From contig SLGR01000103.1 in the NCBI GenBank assembly GCA_007136585.1, forward strand, positions 1 through 11,449: 11,449 nt of DNA, given 5' to 3'. The notes beneath the pieces were generated by a model. It searched no databases. It was not told the origin of the DNA and saw only the letters and a list, made by a program, of their open reading frames with translations. Made by a program: the position numbers and the translations under genes. This document shows, one piece after another, positions 578 through 11,423 of the stretch (its first letter is position 1; every line of letters starts with the position of its first letter). This DNA comes from Candidatus Sumerlaeota bacterium (GTDB lineage: Bacteria > CG03 > SLGR01).

Positions 578-1972
578 ATGAAAATAAACCTTAAGTTAGG
601 GATTTTTACAGCGGCGGTAATTATACTTGTCGTAGTAATGGTAAGTTACGGTGTTTTTCTTTACGAGAGAAGGACCCGTATTGATGAGATCAACCAGGAA
701 CAGAGATCTATCCTCCAGAGTTTTATCACTCTTTCCGAAGAAGCGCTCATCGTTCATGATGAAGTGCTGCTTCTAAATACAATGCAGGCGATTGAAAATA
801 CCTACCGAGGTGTGGAGTTTATAAACTTTTACAATCTTAATACCGAGAGGCTTCTTTTTACGGACAGGGAAGAAATAGACAAAGTGTATAATGTGATTGA
901 TATTCACGACACGTGGCAGGACGGGTATGAGTTCTCAGCCCCGGTTTATATCCTTGGGGAAAGAACAGGGATCGCCCAGATTGGTTTTTCACAAGGGTAT
1001 TATGAAAACCGCATAGAAGAGTCCATCAGGAAAGCAAGGAACAATATAATGCTCATATCCCTGGGGGCCCTTCTTCTAGGAATAGTGCTTGCACTAGTTG
1101 TTTCGGGTACAATAACCAAACCCATAAGAAAGCTCACTGAGGGGGCCCGGTACATAGGGGAAGGGAAGCTCTCTACCAGAATTGAGATAAACTCTTCAGA
1201 TGAGATCGGTGTCCTGGCTGACGAATTCAATGATATGGCCCTGAGATTGTTGGAGCTTGATAAGGCAAAAGATGATTTTGTAAACGCCGTTTCACATGAG
1301 CTCAGGACACCTCTTGCCGCCATTGAAGGCTATATTGACCTTCTTCTGGACAGAGGGGATGCGGTCCCTGAGGAGAAAAAAAAGAAAGCGCTTAAAATTA
1401 TGAAGTCAAGTTCACAGAGACTCTCCCGTTTTATAAGCGACATTCTTGATATGGCAAAGATAAAAGCGGGGATGATGGATATTGATAAAAAACCCTGCGC
1501 GCTTAAGGATATTGTTGATAAGACCGTATCTCTCCTTGATTCAGTGGCACAGAATAAAGGTGTAAGGATAATAGTTGATATAAGCAGCGAAGTTCCTCCT
1601 GTTTTTGCAGATCCCGAAAGGATAAACCAGGTTCTTACCAATCTGATAGGGAATGCTCTGAAGTTTACTCCTAAGGACGGAACCATCACGGTAGCCGCAG
1701 AAAACTCCGAAAGCGGGTATATAAAAGCCTGGGTCAGGGATACCGGACCCGGGATACCCCAGGAAGACCTTACACGTATTTTCAGGCAGTTTGAACAGTC
1801 CGGGGATGCCCGTAACGTGGATGGCCCCAAGGGAACGGGGCTGGGCCTTGCCATAGCCCAGGGAATTGTTAATTCTCACGGGGGGAAAATATGGGTTGAG
1901 AGCAAACGAGGCGAAGGAGCCGCGTTTTTCTTCACTCTGCCGGTTGCCCGCAACCTGCGGGAGAGTACGTAG
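578..1972 (+). CDS. Membrane sensor histidine kinase (HAMP-HisKA-HATPase_c)
   Basis: This is a 464-residue sensor kinase of a two-component system. It has a first membrane segment at about 8-28, an extracytoplasmic sensor region of roughly 130 residues (about 30-158) with no family I recognise, a second membrane segment at about 158-180, and a HAMP linker (about 178-228, containing SSDEIGVLADEFNDMA). The H-box SHELRTP has the phospho-accepting His at 240. The ATPase domain has an N-box with N355 and N359, a G1 box DTGPGIP starting at D388, and a G2 box GTGLGLA from 419, so all catalytic motifs are intact. It heads a same-strand operon: the receiver-GGDEF gene begins 18 bp after its stop and the OmpR-type regulator gene follows. 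Those are its likely phosphotransfer partners. The start has no clear Shine-Dalgarno, but it places the first membrane segment correctly. The overall plan resembles PhoR/ResE-type kinases; the signal is unknown. Confidence 0.93.
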   Translation: MKINLKLGIFTAAVIILVVVMVSYGVFLYERRTRIDEINQEQRSILQSFITLSEEALIVHDEVLLLNTMQAIENTYRGVEFINFYNLNTERLLFTDREEIDKVYNVIDIHDTWQDGYEFSAPVYILGERTGIAQIGFSQGYYENRIEESIRKARNNIMLISLGALLLGIVLALVVSGTITKPIRKLTEGARYIGEGKLSTRIEINSSDEIGVLADEFNDMALRLLELDKAKDDFVNAVSHELRTPLAAIEGYIDLLLDRGDAVPEEKKKKALKIMKSSSQRLSRFISDILDMAKIKAGMMDIDKKPCALKDIVDKTVSLLDSVAQNKGVRIIVDISSEVPPVFADPERINQVLTNLIGNALKFTPKDGTITVAAENSESGYIKAWVRDTGPGIPQEDLTRIFRQFEQSGDARNVDGPKGTGLGLAIAQGIVNSHGGKIWVESKRGEGAAFFFTLPVARNLREST

Positions 1973-1990
1973 TGGGTTAAATAAAAAAAG

Positions 1991-2932
1991 ATGATAGCAA
2001 AAATCAAGGTTTTAGTAGCCGACGATGACGATAACCTGAGGGAGCTTATACTTGATACTCTTGAGGGAGAAGGGTACAAGGTGGTTACCGCGCGGGACGG
2101 ACGCGAAGCCCTGGAGAAAGTTTACTCAGAGAGCCCGGATATAATGATACTTGATGTAAATATGCCTTATATGACAGGGTTTGAGGTATGTGAGAAGATA
2201 AGGAACGATGTTCTTATGAGTAACCTTCCTATAATAATGCTTACTGTAATGGGTGCTGAGAAAGATGAGATAAAAGGCCTTAAAGCAGGCGTAAACGACT
2301 ATCTGACAAAACCTTTTATGCCTTCTATTCTTATAGCCAGGATACGTTCTGTTCTTCAGCGCGTTAACCAGGGGGTAAGCGTAAATCCCCTAACCTATCT
2401 CCCGGGGAACATATCAATAATGAAAGTTCTTGAGGAGAAACTGCGCAGCAGGCAGCTTTTCGGGGTGCTGTACGTTGATCTTGATAATTTTAAAGCCTTC
2501 AATGATTATTACGGGTTTCAGGCAGGCGACGAGGTTATAAAAGAAACCGCTAGAATAATAATTTCAGCTGTAGGCGGCCAGAGCAGCGAGGAGAATTTTG
2601 TGGGCCATATAGGGGGCGATGATTTTATCGCAGTTATCCATGAGAGCAGAATAGAGTCTGTTTCCACCGAGATAATAAAGAAATTTGACAGTATGATAAA
2701 GAGGTTCTATGATGAGGAAGACAGAAAAAGAGGATACATCGTTACCGAAAACAGGCGCGGTGAAAGGGAGGAATATCCGATTATGACTGTTTCAATAGGC
2801 GCGGTTACTTCACGGATTAAACAGTTTAGTCATGTTGGGGAGATCTCAAAACTGGGTAGCGAACTTAAGAAATTCGCAAAAAAGCATGAGAAAAGCTGTT
2901 TTGTTATTGACAGAAGATCAGGTAAAAGATAA
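1991..2932 (+). CDS. Response regulator: receiver domain fused to a GGDEF-family domain (GGDDF variant)
   Basis: This 313-residue soluble protein starts with a receiver domain (about 5-124). The acidic pocket is D11-D14, the phospho-acceptor is D55 in ILDVNMP, and T85 and K107 (TKPF) are conserved, so it should be phosphorylatable. The C-terminal half is a diguanylate-cyclase-like domain (about 130-305) with PLTYLPGN at 133-140, VDLDNFK at 162-168 and GGDDF at 208-212 in place of GGDEF. No RxxD inhibitory site is visible upstream of GGDDF, where the residues are SEEN. The domain order matches PleD/WspR-like regulators that make cyclic-di-GMP when phosphorylated. Whether GGDDF is active cannot be decided from sequence: Asp replaces the usual fourth-position Glu, but other key residues are kept, so activity is plausible. 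It lies between the kinase and the OmpR-type regulator (gaps of 18 and 2 bp), which suggests one kinase feeds both transcription and second-messenger outputs. Confidence 0.9.
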   Translation: MIAKIKVLVADDDDNLRELILDTLEGEGYKVVTARDGREALEKVYSESPDIMILDVNMPYMTGFEVCEKIRNDVLMSNLPIIMLTVMGAEKDEIKGLKAGVNDYLTKPFMPSILIARIRSVLQRVNQGVSVNPLTYLPGNISIMKVLEEKLRSRQLFGVLYVDLDNFKAFNDYYGFQAGDEVIKETARIIISAVGGQSSEENFVGHIGGDDFIAVIHESRIESVSTEIIKKFDSMIKRFYDEEDRKRGYIVTENRRGEREEYPIMTVSIGAVTSRIKQFSHVGEISKLGSELKKFAKKHEKSCFVIDRRSGKR

Positions 2933-2934
2933 TC

Positions 2935-3627
2935 ATGAAGAAAAGAATACTTGTTATTGATGACGAAGAGTCCATAAGGAGCGTGGTCCGGGATTCTCTG
3001 GAGACCGAGGGGTACGCTGTTATTGAAGGAGAGAACAGTGAGGAGGCCATAAGGAAAGCTACTGAACTCAAGCCTGACCTTATGATACTTGATCTCGGTA
3101 TCCCCACCATAGGAGGACTTGAAGTATGCCGGATACTGAGAAAGAGGGAGGAGACCGCGGGGCTTCCGATCATCATACTTACCGTGAGATCAAGGGAAGT
3201 TGATAAGGTGATAGGGCTGGAGATGGGAGCCGATGACTATATAACAAAGCCCTTTCACAGGAGAGAACTTATTGCGCGAGTCAAGGCTGTTATAAGAAGG
3301 GGGCGCCTCCAGGAAACCAACAGGAGGCTTTATGAATCAGGAGATATCATTCTTGACGCTGATGCCTACACGGTAAAGGTTTCAGGTAAACCGGTTGAAC
3401 TGAGACCCAAGGAGTTTGACCTTCTCCAGATACTTCTTGAGAAAAAAGGGAGTGTGCTGAGCCGTGAGTTTCTCTGTGAGAGTGTTCTGGGGTACGAGTA
3501 TTTCGGGTCTTCCAGAACAATAGACGCTCATCTCAAAAACCTCCGAAAAGCCCTGGGCCCCGCTGGAGATATCATTAAAACGGTCAGGGGAGTAGGGTAC
3601 AAGGTTGAAGAAAAGAAAACTCAGTAA
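2935..3627 (+). CDS. OmpR/PhoB-family DNA-binding response regulator
   Basis: This 230-residue transcription factor has a receiver domain (about 3-118) and a winged-helix DNA-binding domain (about 130-226). The receiver is complete: acidic pocket D9/D10, phospho-acceptor D53 in MILDLGIP, a conserved Thr in IIILTVRS, and Lys in TKPF. The winged helix shows the family hallmarks LRPKEFDLLQILLEKKG, a recognition-helix region SSRTIDAHLKNLRKAL, and TVRGVGYK in the wing. Proteins of this family bind direct repeats one helical turn apart as head-to-tail dimers. Exactly such repeats (TTTCAnn every 11 bp) occur at 5816-5855 and 9100-9139, with a degenerate version at 10728-10820, so this is the best local candidate to bind them. 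It starts 2 bp after the previous stop and is probably translationally coupled. It is PhoB/PhoP-like in plan, but the stimulus is unknown, so no gene symbol is given. Confidence 0.95.
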   Translation: MKKRILVIDDEESIRSVVRDSLETEGYAVIEGENSEEAIRKATELKPDLMILDLGIPTIGGLEVCRILRKREETAGLPIIILTVRSREVDKVIGLEMGADDYITKPFHRRELIARVKAVIRRGRLQETNRRLYESGDIILDADAYTVKVSGKPVELRPKEFDLLQILLEKKGSVLSREFLCESVLGYEYFGSSRTIDAHLKNLRKALGPAGDIIKTVRGVGYKVEEKKTQ

Positions 3628-3632
3628 CAGAC

Positions 3633-4175
3633 TTGTCTGAGAAAAGCAGGTACGGCGGAAAGAAAGACGGCATGGGTTTCTACGAGCTCATGGTTGTCCC
3701 GCGTGATATATACACGCAGGTAATAGATGCCATAGAGCATAACAGAATGTCGGATTTCTACAGGCTTCTGGGAGTTACCCCTTCAGGTATCTCCCGGGAG
3801 GGTGCGGGTAATAGAATCCTTGTAATAGAGGATAAGTTAAAACTCGCCCAGGCCGTGAATGAGTCTCTATCACGCCGCGGGTTCGACGTAACCTATACTG
3901 CCGAGAAGAAAAAACTGCTTAATATTGAAGAAGAGGGTATAAACCTTATCATAATAGACCTTACTTTTCACGGGGCTGATGCCCTGAAACTCTGCCGGAG
4001 TCTGAGAGAGAATGAACATACCGCCCGGATACCGGTCATAATAATAAACGGTAAGAGCGAAGAAGATGATATTATAGCCGGTCTGGAAGCCGGGGCAGAT
4101 GATTATATAGGAAAGGATTTTTCTCTTGGGGAGCTGGCCGCGCGGGTAAAGGCCGTCCTGAGGCGTTATAATTAA
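3633..4175 (+). CDS. Short protein with N-terminal unknown region and a degenerate receiver domain
   Basis: This protein of up to 180 residues is the last gene of the signalling operon. Residues 1-59 match nothing I recognise. Residues 60-178 form a receiver fold with several altered positions. E66/D67 and D109 (IIIDLTFHG) keep the pocket and phospho-acceptor. The conserved Ser/Thr is replaced by Asn139 (IIINGKS), and the conserved Lys-Pro is Lys161-Asp162 (GKDF). Such changes are typical of atypical or pseudo-receivers whose output does not follow the usual phosphorylation switch. No effector domain follows, so it may act by protein contact, for example with the kinase or the other receivers. 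The start is uncertain: TTG at 3633, 5 bp after the preceding stop, gives the longest product. ATG at 3672 would shorten it by 13 residues. Neither has a convincing Shine-Dalgarno. An in-frame stop at 3606-3608 excludes anything longer. Confidence 0.82.
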   Translation: MSEKSRYGGKKDGMGFYELMVVPRDIYTQVIDAIEHNRMSDFYRLLGVTPSGISREGAGNRILVIEDKLKLAQAVNESLSRRGFDVTYTAEKKKLLNIEEEGINLIIIDLTFHGADALKLCRSLRENEHTARIPVIIINGKSEEDDIIAGLEAGADDYIGKDFSLGELAARVKAVLRRYN

Positions 4176-5630: not shown

Positions 5631-5815
5631 CTTCAGGCATCTGTATAAGACTCATTGCGGGTTTCTAAAGAGTAAAATACGCTTTGCCTTCTGTTTTTAA
5701 AGTGGGTGGATAGTTTACCGTATTTTAAAGATATTTTACAATTGACTCCCGAATGCGCAGAGTAAAATTCTTTGACAATTAAAGATGAAAAAATGGAGTT
5801 TCGTTAAGATGCTTA

Positions 5816-5870
5816 TTTCACTTTCCTTTCACATATCTTTCCCATTAATTTCATTTTCAGACTGTATACT
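5816..5870 (+). promoter_or_regulatory. Pho-box-like promoter P1: four 11-bp-spaced TTTCA repeats plus -10
   Basis: The units are TTTCACT (5816), TTTCACA (5827), TTTCCCA (5838) and TTTCATT (5849), each exactly 11 bp from the next. A -10 hexamer TATACT begins at 5865, 16 bp after the first base of the last unit. No -35 is present at the expected spot (CCATTA). A start site near 5877 would give a leader of about 40 nt containing the strong ribosome binding site at 5904-5910. The arrangement matches activator-dependent promoters of OmpR/PhoB-family regulators. The same layout recurs at 9100-9154. Confidence 0.8.
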
Positions 5871-5916: not shown

Positions 5917-7572
5917 ATGAAGCTTATGAAGAAGATTTTAGCGGGAGGTGCGGTTCTGGGGCTGCTTGCTTTAACTGCAGGAATGGAAGCAGAGTCAGGC
6001 GAGACGTCTTATGGCGGAGCCATACCCGGGTCCAACCTGGTAAGAAGCTATAATTACAGCGGAGGATTTCTCGTAGGCGTTTATGACGGCTCTTCAAACA
6101 CCGAAACAATTTATTCAGCCGGCAAAATGATAAAACGGGTTCAGCGCGCTGATGACGGCGATATGACTGAGGACGCTGATGGAAATGCCGTGCCGGCAGA
6201 GGATGTTATAGTAACTGTGTATAATTATGAAAGAGGCTCCCTCCAGACTTCTGAAAACCTGCGTACTGGTGAGGTTACCCATTATGCCGGTTCCCAAGAC
6301 AAGGCCTTATACACTATTAATAAGGAAGGAAAAAGGACGGAGGAGTATAATTATGACGATGCCGGTTTTCTCAGGAGTGTCGATGAGTTCGGCATGGTCG
6401 GGGAAGACGGTGAGGAGCAATATGCCCAGATAGGAAGAAGAACCTATGATTCACACGGCAGAGTTGACAAGGCGTATCAGCTTGAGGATCCCAGTGACGC
6501 CAACAGCGGACTAATTGAAACTTCACAGTACCATTATGAGGGAAATGCCCTTACCAAAGTTACGGGCAGGGTCTGGAACGAAGAGGATGAGAAGTGGATA
6601 GAAAACTCAACCACTTACTATGCCGGCGGGCGCCCGACTCATAGTGTAAATGCAGAAGACGGGCTTACCCAGAAATGGCATTATGACGGAACAAAGCTGG
6701 TCTATACAGAACAGTTTAACTTTGACGAGGATAAAGGTGCTCCGGTTGTAAATAGCAGAACCTATTTTGACAAACACGGCAGGCCGTCTGAGATGTGGGA
6801 TGTGGAAGATGGAAAAGAGGTTGGCGGAGACGGCGGAATACCGAGACAGACCTGGCATTATAACGATACCAACTCAGAGATTACCACTTCGTATGTAGTG
6901 GAGCATAACGGTTCTAAAGAGAACAAGACGGCAACAGTAGGCCCGGGCGGTCTTATAAAAACCGTCTATAATCATAACTCGGCTACCCATGATGTTGAAG
7001 GCGGAACATGGCATATTTCAGCTCACGAGCACGTTACCTATTACCACTACAATGATGCTCAGGATACAATTCTTGAGAATTACAATGAGAGGTTTGAAGC
7101 TGACGCCCCTGCCGGTGGCGGTGGCGGCTGGGAACCCACAGTGGTAGGTATTCTGGAAGACCTCGTTGAGATAGACGGCAGCTGGTATGCTGTTGTTAAT
7201 GCCGATGAGATAGACCTCTTTGACGGGGATGGTTTCCAGGCTGCCGATGGCGAGACTTTCTACGTGGCTGTTGACTCGGCGGCTGCCAGGGATCTCTCAG
7301 CCAGTGTAGGAGACAGGGTTCTTCTTGCCGGTGATGTAGCTCAGGATACCCAGGGGCATCTCTCAACTACGATGAACAGGGAGTACGGCGGCGGGTATGC
7401 CATAGGCGAAGAAAATATATCTTCCTACCTGCAGGCCAGGGAAGGGGCAAGTTGGTATAAGCAGGTTATGGATCATATGGCTCAGGTATGGAACAGTGTA
7501 GAACAGGAATTCGGTTCTTATTCTTCTTGGAGACAGGGTTTTGAGTTCTTAAGAGATTTTGTTTTCGGATAG
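5917..7572 (+). CDS. Secreted YD/Rhs-like repeat protein with separate C-terminal domain
   Basis: This 551-residue exported protein has a signal peptide (about 1-25: MKLMKKILAGG then LGLLALTAG, with cleavage near residues 21-25). Residues about 30-395 are degenerate YD-type repeats such as YNYDDAGFLRSVDEFG, TYDSHGRVDKAYQL, TYYAGGRPTHSVNAEDG, WHYDGTKLVYTE and TYFDKHGRPSEMWD. These predict an elongated beta-structure. A five-glycine linker (400-404) leads to a C-terminal domain (about 405-551) with strand-rich VVGILEDLVEIDG and VGDRVLLAGDV (OB-fold-like at best) and an aromatic tail. It is far smaller than true Rhs or teneurin proteins and has no core-cleavage motif or toxin domain that I can see. 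The unit GRP...W-Y-G-T-LVYTE is shared with the protein at 9188-10351, so the two are paralogues. The start at 5917 rests on its RBS and signal peptide. The gene is driven by P1 and ends at an intrinsic terminator. Its function is unknown; a surface or secreted structural role is a guess. Confidence 0.85.
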   Translation: MKLMKKILAGGAVLGLLALTAGMEAESGETSYGGAIPGSNLVRSYNYSGGFLVGVYDGSSNTETIYSAGKMIKRVQRADDGDMTEDADGNAVPAEDVIVTVYNYERGSLQTSENLRTGEVTHYAGSQDKALYTINKEGKRTEEYNYDDAGFLRSVDEFGMVGEDGEEQYAQIGRRTYDSHGRVDKAYQLEDPSDANSGLIETSQYHYEGNALTKVTGRVWNEEDEKWIENSTTYYAGGRPTHSVNAEDGLTQKWHYDGTKLVYTEQFNFDEDKGAPVVNSRTYFDKHGRPSEMWDVEDGKEVGGDGGIPRQTWHYNDTNSEITTSYVVEHNGSKENKTATVGPGGLIKTVYNHNSATHDVEGGTWHISAHEHVTYYHYNDAQDTILENYNERFEADAPAGGGGGWEPTVVGILEDLVEIDGSWYAVVNADEIDLFDGDGFQAADGETFYVAVDSAAARDLSASVGDRVLLAGDVAQDTQGHLSTTMNREYGGGYAIGEENISSYLQAREGASWYKQVMDHMAQVWNSVEQEFGSYSSWRQGFEFLRDFVFG

Positions 7573-9099: not shown

Positions 9100-9154
9100 T
9101 TTCACATATATTTCACACTTATTTCTAATATATTTCATTTATATCCAGTATAAT
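9100..9154 (+). promoter_or_regulatory. Pho-box-like promoter P2: four 11-bp-spaced TTTCA repeats plus perfect -10
   Basis: The units are TTTCACA (9100), TTTCACA (9111), TTTCTAA (9122) and TTTCATT (9133), each exactly 11 bp apart. A perfect TATAAT begins at 9149, 16 bp after the first base of the last unit, the same distance as in P1. There is no -35 (TAATAT occupies that place). A start near 9161 gives a leader of about 27 nt before ATG 9188. The rest of the 202-bp gap after 8985 holds nothing else I can name. Confidence 0.82.
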
Positions 9155-9187: not shown

Positions 9188-10351
9188 ATGATACATGAAA
9201 AGATAAAAACTACGATTACAGCTATAAGCCGGGTAATTATAATTACATTGGCCTTAGGGATATTAGCTTTTTATTTATTCCCTGAAACAGTTTATTCCAG
9301 AAACGAGAGGGCTTATTCTTTCCTGCCTTCAAGAATATACAAGATGTCTGAAAGTATCTTTACCTGGTCGCAGAAAATGGTCGAGATAACTCCTACAAGG
9401 CCTATAGCCGTAACAGATAAAGAAGGGAATACAACTTTTGTCACAGCGGACGGTAACGCGGTGGTCAGGATAGATAATCAGGGGAACAAGACCTTTTCAA
9501 TAGGAGGAAGATCAGCCCATTCAAGGGACAAGGAAGGGAATCTGACCAGGCGGTGGGAGAGGACACCGGGCTCAAACAGGGTAGCTGTTAAGAATGAGTT
9601 CGGAGAGGTTCTTGAGGAAGTGGAGTATGGTCTCGGAGGCAAGACCATAGCCCGGTATGATGAAAAGGGCAACCTTACCCAAAGTTATGAGTATGACAAG
9701 TACGGGAAAAATATTGTATCCGTGCTGGATGAAGTGACTCTGACAAGGACAGAGTATGACTCCAGCGGCAAACCGGTAAGAGAAGTAAACTTTGAAGGTT
9801 ATGAAGTGGCAACTTACGAGTACGATAATAACGACCGGCTTAAATATCGGGAGAGTAACGGGCACAGGACTTTTTACGATGAAAAAGGGCTTATGACCAG
9901 GACCGAGGACCCGGAAGGCTTTATTACCAATACTTACAATTACGGTAAAGATGAAAACGGTTATTATTACCTCGAAACTGTTACAAATGAGATTACCGGA
10001 GATGTAACTTTATATGAAAACGGAAGGCCCAGTGAAGTACGGAATACCTCCGGGGGGGTTGTAAAAGATTACGAGTGGAGAGGGACGGTGCTTGTTTACA
10101 CGGAAGATATGGAGTCTAATGAGATAACCTGGTATAAAAATGGCCGCCCGACTTTTACTACTTTCAAGGGAACATTAACAACGGAGTGGTTTTATAATGA
10201 CGGCAACCTTGTAGGCACTTGGAATCCTGCTCAAGGAACTTTGACACTTTATTCACACGGAAGGGAAGCGGAATCTATTGAAGGTATCAAGGAAAGGCCC
10301 AACTTAAACAGCATATCCGCCCTTTATAGGGAACGCGGTTTAAGTATGTAA
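9188..10351 (+). CDS. Membrane-anchored YD/Rhs-like repeat protein
   Basis: This 387-residue protein has an N-terminal membrane segment (about 14-34, VIIITLALGILAFYLF). No clear cleavage site is visible, so it is probably a signal anchor with the body outside. From about residue 75 to 365 it consists of YD-type repeats: VTADGNAVVRIDNQGNKT, RDKEGNLTRRWER, RYDEKGNLTQSYEYDKYGK, YDSSGKPVREVNFEG, FYDEKGLMTRTEDPEG, LYENGRPSEVRNTSGG, WYKNGRPTFTTFKG and LYSHGREAES. Several units are closer to the canonical Rhs consensus than those of the protein at 5917-7572, with which it shares the GRP...GTVLVYTE module. No toxin tip, protease core or large Rhs cage is present. The start is supported by AGGTG (9178-9182) and the downstream position relative to P2. 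A receiver gene follows after 3 bp, which ties an extracellular repeat protein to a cytoplasmic signalling protein. The function is unknown. Confidence 0.83.
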   Translation: MIHEKIKTTITAISRVIIITLALGILAFYLFPETVYSRNERAYSFLPSRIYKMSESIFTWSQKMVEITPTRPIAVTDKEGNTTFVTADGNAVVRIDNQGNKTFSIGGRSAHSRDKEGNLTRRWERTPGSNRVAVKNEFGEVLEEVEYGLGGKTIARYDEKGNLTQSYEYDKYGKNIVSVLDEVTLTRTEYDSSGKPVREVNFEGYEVATYEYDNNDRLKYRESNGHRTFYDEKGLMTRTEDPEGFITNTYNYGKDENGYYYLETVTNEITGDVTLYENGRPSEVRNTSGGVVKDYEWRGTVLVYTEDMESNEITWYKNGRPTFTTFKGTLTTEWFYNDGNLVGTWNPAQGTLTLYSHGREAESIEGIKERPNLNSISALYRERGLSM

Positions 10352-10354
10352 ATT

Positions 10355-10720
10355 ATGTGCAGGGTTCTTGTCATTGATGATGAAGAAATAGTAGCAGAGA
10401 TGCTTGCCGATACCCTGGAAGTGCTGGGGTGCGAGGTTCAGGTGGCAAACTCCGGCAGGGAAGGGCTCTCCCGGGCCAGGAAGTTCCTCCCCGATGTGAT
10501 AACCCTTGACCTTAAAATGCCCGGAATGGACGGGTTCAAAGTACTTGAACAATTGAAAAAGGATAGCCGAACAAGGGATATACCGGTTCTTATAGCTACC
10601 ATAAACAAGAGAAAGGAGGTTATAGAGAGAGGTTACCTGCTTGGGGCCGCAAAGTACTTTATAAAACCCCTGTCAGCGGAATCTCTCAGGGAAACCATAG
10701 CTGCGTACGCAGCGGTATAA
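10355..10720 (+). CDS. Single-domain (CheY-like) response regulator
   Basis: This 121-residue protein is only a receiver domain. The phosphorylation site is complete: acidic pocket D8/D9, phospho-acceptor D52 in ITLDLKMPG, T81 in LIATIN, and K103 in IKPL. There is no output domain, so it must signal by binding a partner or serve in a phosphorelay. It begins 3 bp after the stop of the anchored YD-repeat gene and is almost certainly co-transcribed with it from P2. No kinase is next to it; the kinase at 578-1972 is the nearest candidate donor. Why a receiver is paired with an extracellular repeat protein is unclear. A self-complementary sequence lies in its last codons (10700-10713). Confidence 0.93.
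   Translation: MCRVLVIDDEEIVAEMLADTLEVLGCEVQVANSGREGLSRARKFLPDVITLDLKMPGMDGFKVLEQLKKDSRTRDIPVLIATINKRKEVIERGYLLGAAKYFIKPLSAESLRETIAAYAAV
10700..10713. repeat. Perfect 14-bp palindrome in the 3' end of the receiver gene
   Basis: GCTGCGTACGCAGC is fully self-complementary and lies in the last codons of the receiver gene, before its stop at 10718-10720. There is no T-run after it, so it is not a normal intrinsic terminator. It may be a protein site or chance. Confidence 0.45.
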
Positions 10721-10727
10721 GGCTTCG

Positions 10728-10835
10728 TTTCACATAAATTTTACAAAAGATTTACTTCGGCTACATAGAAATTTCACAATTGGCCGGTTTACTGCATAGA
10801 AAATTTGCATGAATTTCATTATTATAAAGTAATAT
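10728..10835 (+). promoter_or_regulatory. Pho-box-like region P3: distal repeat array plus proximal unit and -10
   Basis: A distal array follows an 11-bp phase with decreasing fit: TTTCACA (10728), TTTTACA (10739), ATTTACT (10750), a poor CTACATA (10761), and again TTTCACA (10772). Closer to the gene, TTTGCAT (10804) and TTTCATT (10814) are 10 bp apart and out of phase by 2 bp with the distal set. TAATAT begins at 10830, 16 bp after TTTCATT, as in P1 and P2. The start would be near 10842, about 18 nt before ATG 10860. The sites are weaker than in P1 and P2. This covers most of the 139-bp gap; a short TA run lies just downstream. Confidence 0.6.
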
Positions 10836-10859: not shown

Positions 10860-11423
10860 ATGCGTATTACAAAACAAAAAATAAAGACAGCAGTTACAGT
10901 GCCTTCGGCCCTGTCATTACTTTTTATATTTGTGCTAAGTTTTATCCAGCCCGCGGATACCGCGTTCAGTCTTTACCGTAATTTTCGTGACGCGGTATCA
11001 AACCCCTCAATGGTTCACATGAACATAGGCAGGGCTATGACCGGAGAAACGGGGAGCGCTTCTTCCGAGGAATCCGATGAGTGCGGGAACCTCTCGTGCA
11101 ACCTGGTTTTCCTGACCGGCTCCGCCCGGAGCGTAACCCCGTCGCTTTCTTTCTCCGGGTTGAACTTTCTTTCCATCCCGGCGGCTTTAACGCTTATCTT
11201 TACAGCCTCGATTAAGAAACGCAATAATTCTCTGAGGGGCCGAATGCGGGCCTGTAAGGCGAGGTCTCTCAAATTTCTGGATCCGGTGGAGCAAAGCATA
11301 CGCTCACGCGCCGACGAGTATGATATAAACCCCGTCAGGAACTTTCTCCGGGAGATTAAACCCGTGTTTTGCCAGGCGCAGAGCACGGGTTTTTTCTATG
11401 GGGTAAATGGAGAGGCGCTGTGA
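10860..11423 (+). CDS. Unrecognised protein with two hydrophobic segments
   Basis: I do not recognise this 187-residue protein. It has a basic N-terminus and a hydrophobic segment at about 14-32 (VPSALSLLFIFVLSFIQPA), which is a signal peptide or anchor. A Ser/Glu-rich stretch with two close cysteines follows (about 62-80, SASSEESDECGNLSC). A second hydrophobic run comes at about 101-118 (FLSIPAALTLIFTASI), ahead of a basic, arginine-rich tail. If both segments span the membrane, the tail would be cytoplasmic. It lies behind operator region P3, so it may share control with the YD-repeat genes. No Shine-Dalgarno is evident at ATG 10860. Unusually, a hairpin with a T-run (11358-11397) lies within its last 22 codons. 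Its stop overlaps a possible GTG start. A 123-codon minus-strand reading frame overlaps it and looks like a shadow. Confidence 0.6.
   Translation: MRITKQKIKTAVTVPSALSLLFIFVLSFIQPADTAFSLYRNFRDAVSNPSMVHMNIGRAMTGETGSASSEESDECGNLSCNLVFLTGSARSVTPSLSFSGLNFLSIPAALTLIFTASIKKRNNSLRGRMRACKARSLKFLDPVEQSIRSRADEYDINPVRNFLREIKPVFCQAQSTGFFYGVNGEAL
11358..11397 (+). terminator. Intrinsic-terminator-like hairpin inside the 3' end of a coding region
   Basis: AAACCCGTG (11358-11366) pairs perfectly with CACGGGTTT (11384-11392). The helix can continue inward through TTTTGC/GCAGAG with two G-T wobbles. A T-rich run follows (T at 11390-11395, then CT). It lies 26 bp before the stop codon at 11421-11423, so translating ribosomes would cover it. 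It may act as a translation-dependent attenuator for the gene that follows. Confidence 0.65.

Follow-up and report, generated by a model that had tools for sequence, protein, structure and literature searches.

Positions 9100-9154 of the window (the whole stretch of 11,449 nucleotides that was analysed, contig C101 of the source genome, G000) very probably form the operator-promoter of an activator-dependent gene. It would be bound by dimers of the PhoB-like response regulator encoded at 2935-3627 and would share one regulon with two other operators in the window, P1 and P3. The sites, their geometry, conservation, location and targets, and the co-occurrence of regulator and operator across genomes, were all established computationally.

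The P2 operator-promoter

P2, as we call this promoter, consists of four repeat units and a -10 element:

9100..9105, + strand: unit 1, TTTCAC (full word TTTCACA at 9100), distal pair, strong
9111..9116, + strand: unit 2, TTTCAC (full word TTTCACA at 9111), distal pair, strong
9122..9127, + strand: unit 3, TTTCTA (TTTCTAA at 9122), proximal pair, degenerate at most sites
9133..9138, + strand: unit 4, TTTCAT (TTTCATT at 9133), proximal pair, starting 16 bp before the -10
9148..9154, + strand: -10 element TATAAT (9149-9154) with an invariant G at 9148

The array was proposed in a sequence-only reading of the window, and all four units and the TATAAT are present exactly where that reading placed them. 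The units are direct repeats with a phase of 11 bp, starting at -49, -38, -27 and -16 relative to the -10, and the last of these distances, 16 bp from start to start, is also as first described. The absence of a -35 was borne out as well; at 28 sites, the columns located 17 bp 5' of the -10 hold only 0.1-0.5 bits. Direct repeats, a fixed spacing from the last unit to the -10 and a missing -35 give P2 the layout of an OmpR/PhoB-type direct-repeat activator promoter.

Allowing up to 3 mismatches, the pattern of four units, 16 bp and TATAAT has eight matches in the 1.88 Mb of G000 (257 contigs, 88% complete), against none for the reversed control. Seven of the eight agree in detail. The match on contig C22 (3 mismatches) was discarded, as it has no -10 and overlaps an ORF. 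Order-3 Markov DNA trained on the genome (8 Mb) contained no matches even at up to 4 mismatches, and Markov DNA trained on intergenic sequence (8 Mb) contained a single match at up to 3 mismatches and none with the limit set at 2. The P2 array exceeds chance by far.

Upstream and downstream of P2, the window holds two more operators of this kind, each followed by a gene:

5816..5870, + strand: P1, an operator of the P2 type, with units at 5816, 5827, 5838 and 5849 and a -10 TATACT at 5865-5870
5917..7572, + strand: P1 target, a secreted, repeat-rich YD-like protein, with its start at 5917 and the Shine-Dalgarno sequence GGAGG
10728..10835, + strand: P3, a degenerate, extended operator copy, with units at 10728, 10739, 10750, 10772 and 10814
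10830, + strand: P3 -10 element TAATAT, preceded by a G
10860..11423, + strand: P3 target, a membrane protein of about 190 aa, followed by a giant-protein gene

The ORF list gives an alternative start for the P1 target at 5785, which falls 5' of P1's -10. P3 was absent from the sequence-only reading. The equivalent gene of its target carries operators in three other genomes (G001:C41, G003:C28 and G004:C144).

Conservation of the operator

Among 16 Elusimicrobiota genomes, the pattern matched 30 times at up to 2 mismatches, compared with 0 times for the reversed control. These matches are distributed over five genomes (G000, 7; G001, 14; G003, 4; G004, 3; G013, 2). A looser pattern run on 82 genomes of other phyla showed no excess, with 6 matches against 7 for the reversed control.

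We also ran a profile trained on 23 sites from the relatives alone on the 16 genomes. Within G000, this held-out profile ranks P2 (9096-9157) first, with an E-value of 4.5e-11. P1 follows (1.1e-10) and is as real as P2; then come sites on contigs C110, C27, C133, C160 and C226 (all E ≤5.3e-8), with weaker matches on C173 (2.9e-6) and C89 (1.3e-5). There are thus eight matches beyond P2 at E<1e-4, not all of them independent, as the C27 and C133 sites are paralogous copies. P3 scores an E-value of 0.005 genome-wide and 2e-5 with the search limited to the window.

Two columns on which the sites were not selected are invariant in G000, G001, G003 and G004: the C at position 6 of unit 1 and the G just 5' of the -10, each found at 28/28 sites. 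Unit 3 has a C at position 4 in 25 of the 28. A general preference for G before -10-like hexamers was not found upstream of G000 ORFs (20/90), and the G at 28/28 sites therefore belongs to this promoter class. The invariant G (9148 in P2) misses the extended -10 position by one base.

When 257 Gb of GTDB genomes were scanned for the exact pattern, only eight matches came back. Five of them are in Elusimicrobia records (JAFGSA, PWEK), one is in Candidatus Proruminimicrobium, of the class Endomicrobiia, and two are in Lachnospiraceae. The two Lachnospiraceae matches are one common intergenic stretch that has neither a related gene nor such a cassette close by, and we dismissed them as chance. 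Although the scan used the pattern alone and was blind to genes, the Proruminimicrobium match lies 36 bp 5' of a homologue of the 9188 gene, the YD-repeat gene downstream of P2 (31% identity over 338 aa, E 4e-45). This homologue is preceded by a homologue of the window's 7706 gene, and the same genome encodes a kinase, receiver-GGDEF and PhoB-like regulator cassette whose regulator is 49% identical to that of the window. Three near-identical promoter-like stretches (L197, L198 and L199; ATTCACAAAAAATTCACA...GATGTATAATAATAATGCGAAAG) occur at different places in the Proruminimicrobium genome, and these are possibly a repeat family carrying the motif.

Location of the sites and their target genes

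To locate the sites relative to genes, we mapped the 46 sites with E<1e-3 against the ORFs of G000, G001, G003 and G004. None of the 46 falls inside an ORF of 100 aa or longer (not counting sense ORFs with an alternative start less than 140 bp upstream, as at P1), although about 95% of the sampled sequence is inside ORFs. For 40 of them, a start codon follows at most 219 bp 3' of the site (median 36 bp), and three others are at contig ends; the sites are hence intergenic and face a gene. The sequence-only reading had itself named arrays at chance frequency, or as frequent within genes as upstream of them, as evidence against the proposal. With about 30 matches against 0 in the controls, and 0/46 inside ORFs, the idea survives.

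Most targets are secreted or anchored in the membrane. Among them are YD/RHS-repeat and giant proteins, small secreted ones and membrane proteins of about 190 aa. A hydrophobic N-terminus is found in 32/40 targets vs 41/99 background ORFs (p = 3e-5). Five secreted targets in G001 and G004 (L046, L059, L064, L048 and L065) have in common a short signature that follows the signal peptide, approximately S-E-S-Y-x-D-S-W-x-S-P-S, which suggests a common processing or anchoring motif. The giant proteins form a family (L014, 1989-10942; L114, 2575-9000; L119; L116; L118) with the common N-terminal stretch ELGQVVE.YDPRG.GP.LVLIKDLH.N..VQKNI. It has many copies in G001, several of them behind operators, and the copy on G000:C110 matches FHA and PRTase-CE.

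Two genes follow P2 in the window:

9188..10351, + strand: P2 target, a membrane-anchored YD/RHS-repeat protein of 387 aa (PF05593)
10355..10720, + strand: single-domain receiver, 3 bp 3' of the 9188 gene

Judging by this 3-bp gap, the receiver is probably co-transcribed from P2; its copy in G004 has an operator of its own (G004:C109). Members of the 9188 family were found in exactly four of the 16 genomes, G000, G001, G003 and G004. An operator lies directly 5' of the relatives in G001, G004 and Proruminimicrobium, and in G003 the relative is located about 40 bp 3' of an operator-bearing YD gene in the same cluster.

The regulator cassette

The first part of the window encodes a signalling cassette, including the likely binder of the operator:

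578..1972, + strand: sensor histidine kinase (PF00512, PF02518, PF00672), part of the conserved cassette
1991..2932, + strand: receiver-GGDEF protein (PF00072 and PF00990) with a GGDDF motif
2935..3627, + strand: PhoB-like response regulator, receiver and winged helix (PF00072 and PF00486), the likely binder
3633..4175, + strand: second receiver, with a conserved N-terminal extension

The extension of the second receiver (about 60 aa; RYGG...YELMVVPR.IY..VIDAIE) has no Pfam match, and this receiver lies directly 3' of the PhoB-like regulator in G000, G001 and G004.

The genome thus holds a receiver-winged helix regulator suited to such an operator, and the protein from 2935-3627 had already been put forward for this role. 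Only one other Trans_reg_C protein was found in G000, which is an 88%-complete draft, so a further regulator could be missing. Of the two, it alone tracks the operators across genomes: its relatives in G001, G004 and G003 are 82, 73 and 69% identical (next best 46%), and they sit in exactly the three other genomes with at least 5 sites, a co-occurrence that comprises few lineages of one phylum, with incomplete genomes and kinship ignored. G013 and G007, which have weaker operators, contain only distant regulators (42% and 37%), also encoded near a site.

Gene order points the same way. The regulator cassette adjoins an operator in G001 and G003, and the order of the locus is histidine kinase, receiver-GGDEF, PhoB-like regulator, operator, YD protein, small protein, operator, YD protein(s), receiver, operator, membrane protein of about 190 aa and giant protein. 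The full order is contiguous in G003:C28, and is found in pieces in G001 and G004. No operator was found in the region upstream of the cassette itself.

Spacing of the unit pairs

Counting near-perfect distal unit pairs, we found the third unit 11 bp from the distal pair at 33 sites, 20-22 bp away at nine sites, and 53 bp away once, in P3, which is about five helical turns. Where the distal pair is shifted by one helical turn, neither the proximal pair nor the 16-bp distance to the -10 changes. Spacings of 11 or 20-22 bp are expected if separate dimers bind the unit pairs on the same helix face. The sequence-only reading had suggested two regulator dimers from the four-unit layout, and the moved distal pairs favour this proposal. 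Strong distal and weak proximal pairs suggest that binding begins with the distal dimer. A paper cited in PMC4415409 deals with hierarchical binding by PhoB.

Alternative explanations

The layout of P2 is identical to that of E. coli pstS, the regulator's best NCBIfam match is PhoB, and one match in an unrelated genome (G037:C7) precedes a PstS-like gene, all of which would fit a true Pho box and a regulon for the phosphate-starvation response. The window regulator, however, misses the PhoB equivalog cut-off (TIGR02154), scoring 226.7 bits against the required 296.2. In G001, a phoB-phoR-pstSCAB-phoU locus exists apart from this system; its regulator is a different one, and it has no operator. 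No phosphate genes were found among the targets. PhoU matches in G000 fall in two frames, a long one of 564 aa and, close to a contig end, one of 141 aa, and no PhoU match was found in G003. We rejected the phosphate reading on these grounds and consider it very improbable; they indicate that the operator works like a Pho box outside the Pho regulon. The G037:C7 match (L040, 1501-1555, 2 mismatches) lies 53 bp 5' of a gene for a PstS-like phosphate-binding protein, and could be a genuine Pho box in its own organism.

The repeats could instead act in repression, or in both repression and activation, given that the sites abut the -10 and a bound protein could exclude polymerase. The lack of a conserved -35 and the fixed position of unit 4, 16 bp from the -10 in the activating geometry of pstS and phoA, make this very unlikely.

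The array could also be an OmpR/PhoB-type operator for a different binder, namely the sole other Trans_reg_C protein found in G000, a membrane-anchored winged-helix protein encoded on contig C174. Its gene, however, is unlinked to any operator, and relatives were not found in G001 and G003, which have the most sites or the full synteny. G006, a genome from the genus of G004, does encode a relative, but has neither convincing sites nor a window-type regulator. It is therefore a most improbable binder. This protein (L027, 958-1626, minus strand) has N-terminal membrane segments, a coiled coil and a C-terminal Trans_reg_C domain without a receiver, with relatives on G004:C134 and G006:C138, and close to its gene are a gene for a porin-like protein and an operon for an ABC transporter similar to those for glycine betaine uptake.

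Lastly, an AT-rich core and the frequency of T-runs 5' of genes would fit an array that arose by chance, or low-complexity promoter DNA that serves no dedicated regulator. This reading has next to no probability, being refuted computationally by the empty reversed-pattern controls, the Markov null, the held-out profile, the invariant unselected positions, the helical spacing classes and the conservation across classes.

Proposed mechanism and implications

We infer that P2 is bound and activated by the 2935-3627 regulator in a phosphorylation-dependent manner, with two dimers of the phosphorylated protein occupying the four 11-bp units head-to-tail. The distal pair (units 1-2, TTTYAC) would be the strong site, and the weaker proximal pair (units 3-4) would take the place of the missing -35. 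From there, the proximal dimer would recruit RNA polymerase to the consensus -10, presumably through sigma region 4. The regulon would comprise P2, P1, P3 and at least seven further sites in G000. Under the control of the 578-3627 cassette, it would switch on proteins that are secreted or anchored in the membrane, those with YD repeats among them.

Such a mechanism is already known; the regulon is new and previously undescribed, and our literature searches turned up no earlier account of such a regulon in Elusimicrobiota. A broader reading is that the regulon is specific to Elusimicrobiota and spans more than one class, combining one cassette (kinase, receiver-diguanylate cyclase, PhoB-like regulator and extra receivers), a pstS-type operator with two dimer positions, a G before the -10 and a link between c-di-GMP and the cell surface. 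We regard the case for this reading as evenly balanced. If true, it ties c-di-GMP signalling to cell-surface remodelling.

The assignment of regulator, operator and targets is made from sequence for a mostly uncultured phylum, and it links secreted YD-repeat and giant proteins that are otherwise unannotated to a single two-component cassette that includes a diguanylate cyclase. It also shows that the pstS promoter layout, in identical register, serves a regulon unrelated to phosphate. The natural 11- and 20-22-bp spacings offer a ready test for cooperation among PhoB-family dimers.

Comparison with known systems

The closest counterpart of P2 is the E. coli pstS promoter, whose sequence was confirmed upstream of pstS, as was that of the phoA promoter upstream of phoA. 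The sequence-only reading had likened P2 to OmpR/PhoB-type activator promoters, and the register of P2 is exactly that of pstS. Both have four units (in pstS, two Pho boxes with four PhoB units) at 11-bp phase and at -49, -38, -27 and -16, a degenerate third unit and no -35. They differ in the unit sequence, which is TGTCA in pstS and TTTCAC here, and in the invariant G before the -10 here. The regulon also differs, consisting here of secreted YD-repeat and other surface proteins, with a regulator that is not a PhoB equivalog. In phoA, units at -27 and -16 from the -10 match the two proximal units of P2.

Bacillus subtilis PhoP boxes, which serve the phosphate regulon, are TTAACA-type repeats at 11 bp, and a four-repeat core upstream of the -10 is thought to bind two dimers. 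This core resembles P2, although the unit sequence differs.

The closest solved full-length relatives of the window regulator in the PDB are RegX3 (2oqr), MtrA (2gwr) and PhoP (3r0j); their targets differ from those of the window regulator, and the likeness need not mean orthology.

In Streptomyces PhoP operators (GTTCACC), direct repeat units of 11 nt form arrays that are either simple or complex (PMC4415409). They share with the operators described here the TTCAC core, the 11-nt units and a variable number and organisation of units. They belong to another phylum and other targets, whereas here the distal pair takes two helical positions and the 16 bp to the -10 is fixed.
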